Part shown: positions 13,833 to 17,159 of the stretch, one piece after another | Numbering within the stretch: the stretch's first letter is position 1 | How the letters are laid out: every line of letters starts with the position of its first letter | NCBI RefSeq assembly: GCF_004761865.1 | Contig: NZ_SJDM01000001.1 | Coordinates: 319,549 to 383,548, forward strand | Direction: 5' to 3' | DNA from: Crenalkalicoccus roseus | GTDB taxonomy: Bacteria > Pseudomonadota > Alphaproteobacteria > Acetobacterales > Acetobacteraceae | DNA length: 64,000 bases | Notes under the pieces: generated by a model | Told to the model about the DNA's origin: nothing | The model's database searches: none | Seen by the model: the letters and a program-made list of their open reading frames with translations, nothing else | Translations under genes and position numbers: made by a program

Positions 13833-14873
13833 ATGGATTGCTGCCTGACGATCGGGGGCGGGGAGGCGCCGCGCTCCGGGCTCGACCGCCGCACGGCGCT
13901 GAAGGGCGCGGCCGCCGCCGCAGGCGGGCTGGCGCTGGCCACGCCGGCGCAGGCCCAGGGCGCCCAGCGCCTCCGCCTCGCCTTCTGCGGCCAGCTCCTC
14001 TGCGTCGTGCCCTACGAGGTGGCGCGGGAGCGCGGGCATTTCCGCGAGCAGGGCTTCGAGATCGAGCTGGTCTACACCCGCGGCGGCAACCAGGCGATGC
14101 AGGCGCTGGTCGGCGGCGCGGTGGACTATGCCGGCACCTCCTTCGACGTCGCGCTGCAGGCCTTCGCCAACGGCGCGCAGATCCGCCGCTTCGCCTCCAC
14201 GGGCCGGCTGCCGCTCTTCGCGCTCGTCACCGCGCCGCGCACGGCGCAGCAGATCGCCGACGTGAAGGCGCTGGAGGGGCGGACGCTCGGCGTCTCCGCC
14301 CTCGGCAACGCCGACCACGTGCTGCTGCTCTACCTGATGCGTCAGGCCGGCGCCGACCCCGGGCGCGCGCGCTTCGCCGCCATCGGCACCAACCTGTTCG
14401 AGGCGCTGCGCCGCGGCCAGGTGGAGGCCGGCATGGTGCAGGAGCCGGCGCTGACCCTGGTGCAGGAGGCGGGCGGCAAGGTGCTGTTCAACGCCATGGA
14501 CCTCGGCCACGCCCGCAGCATGCTCGGCGGCGCCTTCGAGTTCATGGGCGTCGCCTACCGCGCGGCAGAGCGCGAGCGCCGGCTGGAGGAGATGCGCCGC
14601 CTCGCCCGCGCCCTCGCCGCCGGGCTGCGCGACACCCGCGCCCTGCCGGTGGAGGAGGTGGTCGCCGCCCTGCCGCGGGAGCTCGTCGCCGGCGGCGACT
14701 GGGGACGCCTCGGCGTGATCCTGGAGCGCCACCGCGAGTCGCTCTACCCCGAGGATGTGCGCATCGACACCGAGGCCGCGCGGCGGGTCGAGGTGGCGCA
14801 GCGCGTCGCCGGGGTGCTGCAGAGGGAGGTCGAGTTGCCGGTCCTGCTCGACCGGGCCGTGCTGGAGGGATGA
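13833..14873 (+). CDS. ABC importer substrate-binding protein, NMT1/SsuA-like
   Basis: 346 aa periplasmic protein. A twin-arginine signal (DRRTALKGAAAAAGG, cleavage near AQAQG) precedes an NMT1/TauA/SsuA-type fold: VPYEVARERGHFREQGFEIE and GGNQAMQALVGGAVDYAGTS match the family's binding region. Homologues bind sulfonates, nitrate, or thiamine and pyrimidine precursors. It starts a four-gene operon and its stop overlaps the ATPase start. The unusual partner is the MerB-like gene at the operon's end, so the ligand may be a compound that enzyme cleaves. Confidence 0.85.
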   Translation: MDCCLTIGGGEAPRSGLDRRTALKGAAAAAGGLALATPAQAQGAQRLRLAFCGQLLCVVPYEVARERGHFREQGFEIELVYTRGGNQAMQALVGGAVDYAGTSFDVALQAFANGAQIRRFASTGRLPLFALVTAPRTAQQIADVKALEGRTLGVSALGNADHVLLLYLMRQAGADPGRARFAAIGTNLFEALRRGQVEAGMVQEPALTLVQEAGGKVLFNAMDLGHARSMLGGAFEFMGVAYRAAERERRLEEMRRLARALAAGLRDTRALPVEEVVAALPRELVAGGDWGRLGVILERHRESLYPEDVRIDTEAARRVEVAQRVAGVLQREVELPVLLDRAVLEG

Positions 14874-15640
14874 ATTTGCTTCGCATCGAGAATCTGAGCC
14901 TCGGCTACGGGGGCGAGCCGGTCCTGGCCGACCTCGACCTCGCGCTCGGCGCCGGGGAGTTCGCCAGCCTCGTCGGGCCTTCCGGCTCGGGCAAGACCAG
15001 CGTGCTGCGCGCCATCGTCGGGCTGCAGCAGCGCCAGTCCGGGCTGATCGACCTGCGCACGGGGCCGGAGGAGATCGGCTTCCTGTTCCAGGACGACGCG
15101 CTGCTGCCCTGGCGCACGGCGCGGGAGAACGCCGCCCTCGGCCTGGTCATCCGCGGCACGCCGAAGGCCGAGGCGCTGGCCCAGGCCGATGCCTGGCTGG
15201 AGCGGCTCGGGCTCAAGGGGCTCGGCGGGCGCTATCCGCGCCAGCTCTCGGGCGGGCAGCGCAAGCGGGTGGCGATCGCGCAGGTGCTGGTGCTGCGCCC
15301 GCGGCTGCTGCTGATGGACGAGCCCTTCGCGGCGCTCGACGCCATCGTGCGCACGCGCATCACCCAGGACCTGCTCTCGCTGGTGGAGCGCGAGCGCATC
15401 TCCGTGCTGCTGGTCACGCACGACCTCGAGGAGGCGCTCTCCGTCTCCGACGTGGTGCACGTGCTCTCCAACGGCCCGCGGGCGCGCATCCTCGCCAGCC
15501 GCAGGGTGCCGATCCCGCGCCCGCGCGACCTGCTGGCGGCGCGCGGCCACCCGGCCTTCGCGCCGCTGCTGCGCCAGCTCTGGCGCGACCTCGCCGGGGA
15601 GACGGAAGGCGCGCCGGCGCGGCTGGAGGAGGCGGCCTGA
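14870..15640 (+). CDS. ABC importer ATPase, SsuB/TauB-type
   Basis: 256 aa. Walker A GPSGSGKTS near residue 40, signature LSGGQRKRVAIAQVLVLRP and Walker B LLLMDEPFAALDAI are intact, with the SsuB/NrtD-type LLPWRTARENAALGL Q-loop region. The ATG overlaps the stop of the binding-protein gene and its own stop overlaps the permease ATG, so the operon is tightly coupled. Confidence 0.92.
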   Translation: MNLLRIENLSLGYGGEPVLADLDLALGAGEFASLVGPSGSGKTSVLRAIVGLQQRQSGLIDLRTGPEEIGFLFQDDALLPWRTARENAALGLVIRGTPKAEALAQADAWLERLGLKGLGGRYPRQLSGGQRKRVAIAQVLVLRPRLLLMDEPFAALDAIVRTRITQDLLSLVERERISVLLVTHDLEEALSVSDVVHVLSNGPRARILASRRVPIPRPRDLLAARGHPAFAPLLRQLWRDLAGETEGAPARLEEAA

Positions 15641-16401
15641 TGCGCGCCTTCCTCGACCGCCTCTGGATCCGCCGCCTGATCGCCCTGTCGCTGCTGATTG
15701 CGTTGTGGGAGCTCGCCGGCCGCGCCGGGCTGCTCGACCCGCTCTACTTCTCGACGCCAAGCGAGGTGGCGCTGGTCGGCGCCGGGCTGTTCCTCGACGG
15801 CAGCATCTGGCCGCACCTGCAGGCGACCTTCACCGCGGCGCTTCTCGGCCTCGGCGCCGGGCTTGCGATCGGCGTGGCGCTCGGCTTCGCCGCGGCGCTG
15901 GTGCGCCCGCTCGCCGACCTGCTCGAGCCGGTGATGATGCTGCTCAACGCCATCCCGCGCGTGATCCTGGCGCCGCTCTTCGTCATCTGGCTCGGCATCG
16001 ACCTCGGCTCGAAGGTGGCGCTGGCGACGGTGCTGGTGGCGGTGCTGGTGTTCTTCGCCGTCTATGGCGGGGTGAAGGAGGTGGACCAGCGCCTGGTGGA
16101 GCGCGTCAGGACGCTCGGCGGCGGCCGCGCCGTGCTGGTGCGCGAGGTCTACATCCCCTCGGTCACCGCCTGGGTGATGGGCAACCTGAAGGTGGCGGTG
16201 GGCTTCGCCTTCACCGGCGCGGTGGTGGGGGAGTTCGTCGCCTCCGCCCGCGGCCTCGGCTACCTGCTGCAATTCGCCCAGAGCACCTACAACGCCAGCC
16301 TGAGCCTCGCCCTGGTGGTGATGATCATGGCCTTCGTGCTGGTGCTGTTCATGCTCTCCGAGGCGCTGGAGCGGCGCCTGCTGCGCTGGCGGCACCGGTG
16401 A
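15640..16401 (+). CDS. ABC importer permease, SsuC/TauC-type
   Basis: 253 aa inner-membrane permease with about six hydrophobic segments. The BPD_transp_1 EAA loop appears around RVRTLGGGRAVLVREVYIPS (about residues 155-175), and NAIPRVILAPLFVIWLGID is typical of the SsuC/TauC group. Its TGA overlaps the GTG of the MerB-like gene (GTGA), so expression of the two is probably linked. Confidence 0.9.
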   Translation: MRAFLDRLWIRRLIALSLLIALWELAGRAGLLDPLYFSTPSEVALVGAGLFLDGSIWPHLQATFTAALLGLGAGLAIGVALGFAAALVRPLADLLEPVMMLLNAIPRVILAPLFVIWLGIDLGSKVALATVLVAVLVFFAVYGGVKEVDQRLVERVRTLGGGRAVLVREVYIPSVTAWVMGNLKVAVGFAFTGAVVGEFVASARGLGYLLQFAQSTYNASLSLALVVMIMAFVLVLFMLSEALERRLLRWRHR

Positions 16402-17159
16402 GCGCGGCGGCGGCAGGCTTCGCGGAGGGCGAGGACTTCCCCCTCCGCCCCGGCGTGCGCATGCCGGACTGGTCGCTGGTGACCGACCCGGCCGCCCGCG
16501 CCGCCCTCGCCGAGAGCATGGCGGTGGCCGGGCGGCGGGAGAAATGGGCCGGCCTCTCCCCGGCCGAGGACCGCCTGTGGCAGGCGGTGCTGCGCGGCTT
16601 CGCCGCCACCGGGCGGGCGCCGGCGACGGCGACGCTGGCCGGGGAGGCGGGCCTCTCCGCGCCCGAGGTGGCGGAGCATCTGGCGGCGCTGCGGCGGCGC
16701 GACCTGCTGGTGCAGGACGCCTCGGGCGAGGTCTCCGCCGCCTATCCCTTCTCCGCCTGGGAGACGCCGCACCGCGTGGCGCTCGGGGTCGCGGCGCGGC
16801 CGGTCTTCGCGCTCTGCGCCATCGACGCGCTCGGCGCCGGCGCCATGCTCGGCCTCGAGTCGCGGGTGGACTCCGCCTGCGCCGCATGCGGCGCCCCGAT
16901 CCGCATCCGCATCGCGGCGCGCGGCCGGGCGCTGGCGGCGGTGGCGCCCGAGGGCGCCGTCGTCTGGTGCGGCATCCGCTACGCGGGGGGCTGCGCCGCC
17001 ACCTCGGGCTGCGCGCTCAAGCTGTTCTTCTGCTCCGAGGCGCATCTCGACGCCTGGCGGCAGCGGGCCGGACCGGACGCGCCGGGGCACCGCCTCGCGA
17101 TCGGCGCGGCGCACCAGCTCGGCATGGCGCTGTTCGTGCCGATGCTGGCTCCGGGGTAG
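16398..17159 (+). CDS. MerB-like (alkylmercury lyase family) protein
   Basis: 253 aa. After an N-terminal winged-helix-like region (about 50-120) comes a MerB-type domain. FALCAIDALG supplies C140 and D143, matching catalytic C96 and D99 of E. coli MerB. VDSACAACGAPI supplies C161, matching C117. SGCALKLFF supplies C205, matching catalytic C159. Extra cysteines at 164, 191, 199 and 212 are unusual. MerB cleaves the carbon-mercury bond of organomercurials. No merR, merT, merP or merA is nearby; instead the gene is coupled to an NMT1-type importer. The GTG start overlaps the permease stop. The true substrate is uncertain. Confidence 0.78.
   Translation: MSAAAAGFAEGEDFPLRPGVRMPDWSLVTDPAARAALAESMAVAGRREKWAGLSPAEDRLWQAVLRGFAATGRAPATATLAGEAGLSAPEVAEHLAALRRRDLLVQDASGEVSAAYPFSAWETPHRVALGVAARPVFALCAIDALGAGAMLGLESRVDSACAACGAPIRIRIAARGRALAAVAPEGAVVWCGIRYAGGCAATSGCALKLFFCSEAHLDAWRQRAGPDAPGHRLAIGAAHQLGMALFVPMLAPG

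Follow-up and report, generated by a model that had tools for sequence, protein, structure and literature searches.

Organisation of the four-gene operon

We analysed a 64,000-nucleotide stretch of the Crenalkalicoccus roseus genome (contig NZ_SJDM01000001.1; this whole stretch is called the window below) and focused on an operon in which three genes of an ATP-binding cassette (ABC) transporter, encoding a substrate-binding protein (SBP), an ATPase and a permease, are followed by a gene for a MerB-like lyase. All four open reading frames lie on one strand at positions 13833-17159, and stop and start overlap at every junction. The original prediction, made from the sequence alone, had read these genes as one overlapping operon whose SBP is exported by the twin-arginine translocation (Tat) pathway, and the coordinates and family matches bear this out. 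The genes are as follows.

13833..14873, + strand: SBP of the NMT1/SsuA type with a Tat signal, 346 aa, ATG start; PF09084, E=7e-18
14870..15640, + strand: ABC ATPase, 256 aa, no cysteine; ATGA overlap with the SBP gene; PF00005 (ABC_tran), E=1e-29
15640..16401, + strand: ABC permease, 253 aa, no cysteine; TGATG junction with the ATPase gene; PF00528 (BPD_transp_1), E=9e-22
16398..17159, + strand: MerB-like lyase, 253 aa, GTG start; GTGA overlap with the permease stop; PF03243, E=1e-27

The Tat signal of the SBP scored 18.8 bits with TIGR01409, against a cut-off of 16.7.

The lyase is a MerB-family protein

The lyase matched PF03243 with 97.1 bits (cut-off 27), in agreement with the whole-genome search. 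Its structure model reached a predicted local distance difference test (pLDDT) value of 93.1, and all 11 PDB matches at E<=0.001 were MerB or MerB2, the best with a TM score of 0.84 by target length. Two regions are central to the comparison with other MerB proteins.

16815..17035, + strand: catalytic region with C140-A-I-D143, C161-A-A-C164, C199, C205 and C212, defined by alignment column counts
16443..16475, + strand: N-terminal RPGVxxPDWS motif, the mark of this MerB subfamily, defined by alignments

In the alignment columns, C140, D143 and C205, which correspond to C96, D99 and C159 of MerB, are present in 46 of 46 relatives, and C161 (MerB C117) in 45 of 46. The four active-site counterparts that had been predicted are therefore kept, and the model, its PDB matches and the conserved residues agree on a MerB-type Cys/Asp site and fold. 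Four additional cysteines had also been pointed out. All four are there, and three of them are common in the subfamily (C164 in 43, C212 in 41 and C199 in 34 of the 46 relatives), but C191 is found in only two. Likewise, the winged-helix-like N-terminus that had been noted is visible in the model, with a weak match to the IclR helix-turn-helix; since solved MerB proteins align across most of this part, it is ordinary MerB architecture and not a special feature. Taken together, the window lyase is a true MerB-family protein.

The lyase descends from mer-operon lyases

Scanning 84,980 species genomes for the lyase gave its 80 best relatives, most of which belong to Alphaproteobacteria. A MerA with the C-terminal CC was present in the fetched locus of 54 of the 80, and 14 of these were counted as fused to the lyase. 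In the MerB tree, the window lyase forms one clade with those of Siccirubricoccus sp. G192 and Elioraea sp. Yellowstone (99/92), and the sister of this clade consists of five Roseomonadaceae-type lyases from merT-merB-merA operons (100/98). The ABC-linked lyases thus fall within a larger set of lyases from ordinary mer operons, from which the window lyase is descended. When viral contigs were searched, no relative of the lyase was found. As a separate observation, the same MerB subfamily and MerA occur in one chain (MerBA) in many Alphaproteobacteria (L053-L076), and plasmid records annotate fusions of this kind as MerBA.

Among the mer-operon kin, MerB1 of plasmid pMR68 is 42% identical to the window lyase over the full length and includes the N-terminal motif. 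The pMR68 merR-orf4-orf5-merT1-merP1-merF-merA-merB1 cluster gave Escherichia coli resistance to phenylmercury and volatilised mercury from it, an activity of the cluster as a whole (PMC3737084). Because its kin, including pMR68 MerB1, sit in mer operons, the default reading of the enzyme is an organomercurial lyase. The substrate had originally been taken to be an unknown carbon-metal or carbon-heteroatom compound; with descent from mer-operon lyases, many of them adjacent or fused to MerA, an organomercurial replaces it as the default.

The four-gene unit is conserved in three genera

Siccirubricoccus sp. G192 has the same tightly packed order of four genes, with identities of 67-83%, and so does Elioraea sp. 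Yellowstone, with 57-80%; the flanking genes differ among the three loci. All three genera are bacteria of soil and water. In the window, the operon is flanked upstream by a divergently oriented gene whose product is a small HU/IHF-like protein, and downstream by a convergent Sir2-like gene, both identified by reading the sequence; Rfam gave no meaningful match at the operon. Among the lyase relatives listed, ABC genes stand beside the lyase only in this three-member clade. In the SBP tree, too, the three genera group together (100/99), and they branch within this clade as in the lyase tree; this congruence indicates that the four genes were inherited as a block. Most simply, the unit arose by one joining event. 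The coupling of the lyase to a dedicated ABC importer, as originally proposed, is supported by the identical order in three genera, the different flanks and the congruent trees, and the linkage recurs in other genomes as that proposal implied.

The transporter belongs to a rare subfamily with paired cysteines

The window SBP has only four cysteines, which form two pairs, each in a motif of its own: C3-C4 in M-x-C-C and C52/C57 in FCGQLLC. M-x-C-C ahead of the Tat twin arginines together with FC(G/S)QLLC forms the signature of a transporter subfamily, and both motifs are invariant in six aligned members that are 42-78% identical to the window SBP. A seventh member, from another Pseudomonadota family, keeps both motifs, but its CC is displaced by one residue. 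The region ahead of the Tat twin arginines is normally removed with the signal peptide. We observed M-x(1,2)-C-C at the SBP N-terminus in the window (13833-13844) and in L045, L051, L171, L170, L164 and L180, which range from Acetobacteraceae to Thermus. The subfamily is rare, being found in 2 of 385 genomes of the class, 2 of 299 of the phylum and 3 of 200 of the order, with the window's own genome counted each time. For comparison, some two dozen distant paralogues of the NMT1 type were taken from the same bacterial family; none had equivalents of C52 and C57 together, and two had that of C57 alone.

Four of the seven members, those of Thermus brockianus and of genomes G350, G750 and G018, have no MerB neighbour, so this transporter is not tied to MerB for its occurrence. 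On a Thermus brockianus plasmid (L170:11896-14759), the transporter, whose SBP is more than 50% identical to the window SBP, carries SaoD/DsrE as the fourth gene and lies near IS1634 transposases; this plasmid copy points to a wide horizontal spread of the transporter. In G750, from another Pseudomonadota family (L180:5906-9240, - strand), the transporter genes are followed in one operon by genes for a NifU-like protein and SaoD/DsrE. The SaoD/DsrE proteins beside these two transporters exceed the NF040913 cut-off, and the transporters of G350 and G018 have neither neighbour. These surroundings are consistent with a tie between the transporter and thiol- or metal-related proteins, although the evidence is indirect. 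A locus in G176 (L163:3945-6345, - strand) was considered as a further example and set aside: it is a transporter remnant with SBP fragments, frame breaks and an SBP-ATPase deletion, and it contains no MerB remnant.

Here, we need to consider that the transporter might import an ordinary NMT1-type ligand, such as a sulfonate, taurine, a thiamine precursor or another thiol or sulfur compound, with merB co-transcribed for detoxification or for protecting thiol uptake. Taurine and sulfonate models do give the SBP, ATPase and permease their highest scores: the nearest NCBIfam models are taurine/2-aminoethylphosphonate types for the ATPase and TauC, SaoP and SsuC for the permease, and transporter homologues occur without MerB. 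However, each of these models remains below its cut-off, and the sulfonate and taurine scores are far short (SsuA 60.7 of 163.5, TauA 20.2 of 304, TauB 183 of 357 and TauC 98 of 342 bits). In addition, the paired cysteine motif is unlike that of the distant NMT1 paralogues, and a strict, tightly packed unit is kept in three genera with different flanks. Based on these observations, we regard an ordinary ligand as improbable.

mer genes in the rest of the genome

The absence of classical mer genes had been predicted, and this holds for the window and the neighbourhood of the operon, where neither merR nor merT was found, but not for the genome. Contig C98 (8.6 kb; L185:1826-4315) of the same genome carries an atypical locus with merR, merT, a GDCCVxC protein gene and a flavin adenine dinucleotide (FAD) disulphide reductase gene. 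Against the MerA model, whose cut-off is 454 bits, this reductase scored 302; it has the motif GTCALRGC and lacks the C-terminal CC. The contig also bears phage-tail-like genes, as identified by reading the sequence. No MerA above 454 bits was found in the genomes of the window, Siccirubricoccus sp. G192 or Elioraea sp. Yellowstone; the best score in the window's genome, 358.8 bits, belongs to a dihydrolipoyl dehydrogenase-like protein without the C-terminal CC.

Given the lack of MerA, the substrate of the operon might instead be a soft-metal complex, or a natural organometal or organometalloid in which the metal is not mercury. The lyase would then have been re-tuned to this compound, and MerA would not be required, as no Hg(II) is made. 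No MerA exceeds the cut-off in the three genomes, yet the close relatives with merT-merB-merA operons do carry it. Moreover, the ABC-linked lyases form a separate clade, and the transporter subfamily stands elsewhere beside SaoD/DsrE and a NifU-like protein. The selenocysteine-assisted organometallic (SAO) system is supposed to work in this way. On the other hand, the active-site residues are unchanged and the nearest kin are plain mer lyases, and MerA is missing anyway from half of the genomes with MerB (906 of 1795, PMC8261052). We therefore consider a substrate other than mercury doubtful.

Proposed uptake and cleavage of an organometal

We suggest that the locus is an uptake-and-lysis operon, in which an organometal, most likely an organomercurial, would be imported by the ABC transporter and then cleaved by the MerB-type lyase, and we give this reading a probability of about 0.55. 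The locus is real and conserved and the concept has precedent, while the substrate is what we infer: an organomercurial is the most likely one because of the ancestry of the lyase. Through C52 and C57, the Tat-exported SBP might bind the organometal as a soft cation or in complex with a thiol. Methyl- or phenylmercury would be the most likely substrate, and an organotin is possible; MerB is known to act on some organotin compounds. The ATPase and permease would then carry the organometal into the cytoplasm, where the lyase may bind it on C140 and C205 with D143 as the proton carrier. Protonolysis would split the carbon-metal bond into a hydrocarbon and a metal ion, and the released metal could be handled by the unlinked merR-merT-GDCCVxC-reductase locus of the same genome. 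The lyase activity of the window protein, the working of the ABC genes as an importer and not in another role, and the transporter substrate with the role of the SBP cysteines are all predicted from the sequence.

Several points weigh against this reading. First, none of the three genomes has a canonical MerA, so that import followed by cleavage would release Hg(II) inside the cell. Second, since members of the transporter subfamily occur without a neighbouring MerB, the substrate of the transporter need not be that of MerB. Third, the lyase did not reach the NCBIfam equivalogs for MerB (NF009710, 65.1 of 193 bits; NF033555, 62.4 of 200 bits); a mer-operon relative (L046) is likewise below an equivalog cut-off. 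Fourth, an SBP model built from three sequences had a pLDDT of 34, too low to interpret, and C52 and C57 are placed in the cleft, in the loop after the first strand, by analogy with other type II SBPs. Fifth, no regulator gene was found at the operon, the upstream regions of the three operons had no clearly conserved operator, and a promoter and terminator scan gave signals no better than those of shuffled sequences; no promoter was found. Finally, it is probable that one single event gave rise to all three operons.

This proposal also has a wider form. In aerobes without MerA, a dedicated ATP-driven importer would supply a MerB-type lyase with an organomercurial or another organometal or organometalloid, which the lyase would split. 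The FCxQLLC/M-x-C-C transporters would then be a broader equivalent of SAO without selenium, with SaoD/DsrE as further partners in Thermus and in other Pseudomonadota. We put this forward tentatively, as possible at somewhat less than even odds. If true, it would provide a selenium-free model for SAO-type organometal metabolism, and it bears on the question of why half of the MerB-bearing genomes lack MerA (PMC8261052).

Comparison with known systems

The pairing of a MerB-like lyase with an ABC importer has until now been described for one selenium-dependent system alone, the SAO system, in which selenoproteins occur among the SBP, permease and lyase (Haft and Gwadz 2023, described in the review PMC13188914). 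The locus had been thought a possibly undescribed uptake-and-lysis system, but the combination of a MerB-like protein with ABC import is already present in SAO as far as that review covers it. Both systems place a MerB-like lyase in one operon with an SBP, an ATPase and a permease, and both have reactive SBP residues, selenocysteine in SAO and cysteine here. They differ in that the window locus has no selenocysteine codons and no SaoB, SaoC, SaoD or SaoT genes beside the operon, and in that its lyase is of mer-operon descent.

The locus could also be regarded as a cysteine-containing member of SAO itself, given the same kinds of parts, the weak matches to the Sao models and the SaoD-type proteins that adjoin homologous transporters elsewhere. 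We consider this very improbable, as the four models stayed below their cut-offs (SaoL 63.8 of 140, SaoA 148.9 of 360, SaoP 85.4 of 295 and SaoX 10.7 of 300 bits), each of the four reading frames reads through without an in-frame TGA, the window's genome has no match to SaoD/DsrE (NF040913), and the lyase groups with mer-operon MerB in the tree. SaoD/DsrE was rejected as a marker of SAO: in Thermus thermophilus HB27 it stands alone (L174:7001-7402), and in Thermomicrobium its neighbour is a metal ABC transporter (L175:4094-7405). What looks undescribed, judged against the review and the NCBIfam models, is the form found here, which relies on cysteine only and has, in bacteria of the Acetobacteraceae type, a MerB of the mer-operon type.

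With the MerB of mer operons (the alphaproteobacterial subfamily, MerBA fusions and pMR68 MerB1), the window lyase shares family, fold, Cys/Asp set, RPGxxxPDWS extension and tree position, whereas it is joined to an ABC importer and not to merR, merT, merP and merA, in a genome without MerA above the cut-off. The transporter belongs with the SsuA/TauA/NMT1 importers (TIGR01728, PF09084) by the general family of its SBP, ATPase and permease, but is distinguished from them by FCxQLLC and M-x-C-C, by scores far under the NCBIfam cut-offs and by the coupled lyase. MerT, MerP, MerC and MerE bring mercurials into the cell for MerB and MerA; they are small membrane proteins, unlike the ATP-driven, SBP-dependent transporter described here. 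To our knowledge, the known bacterial importers of organomercurials are such small Mer membrane proteins, and an SBP-dependent, ATP-driven organomercurial importer would, if true, be new and relevant to methylmercury cycling.

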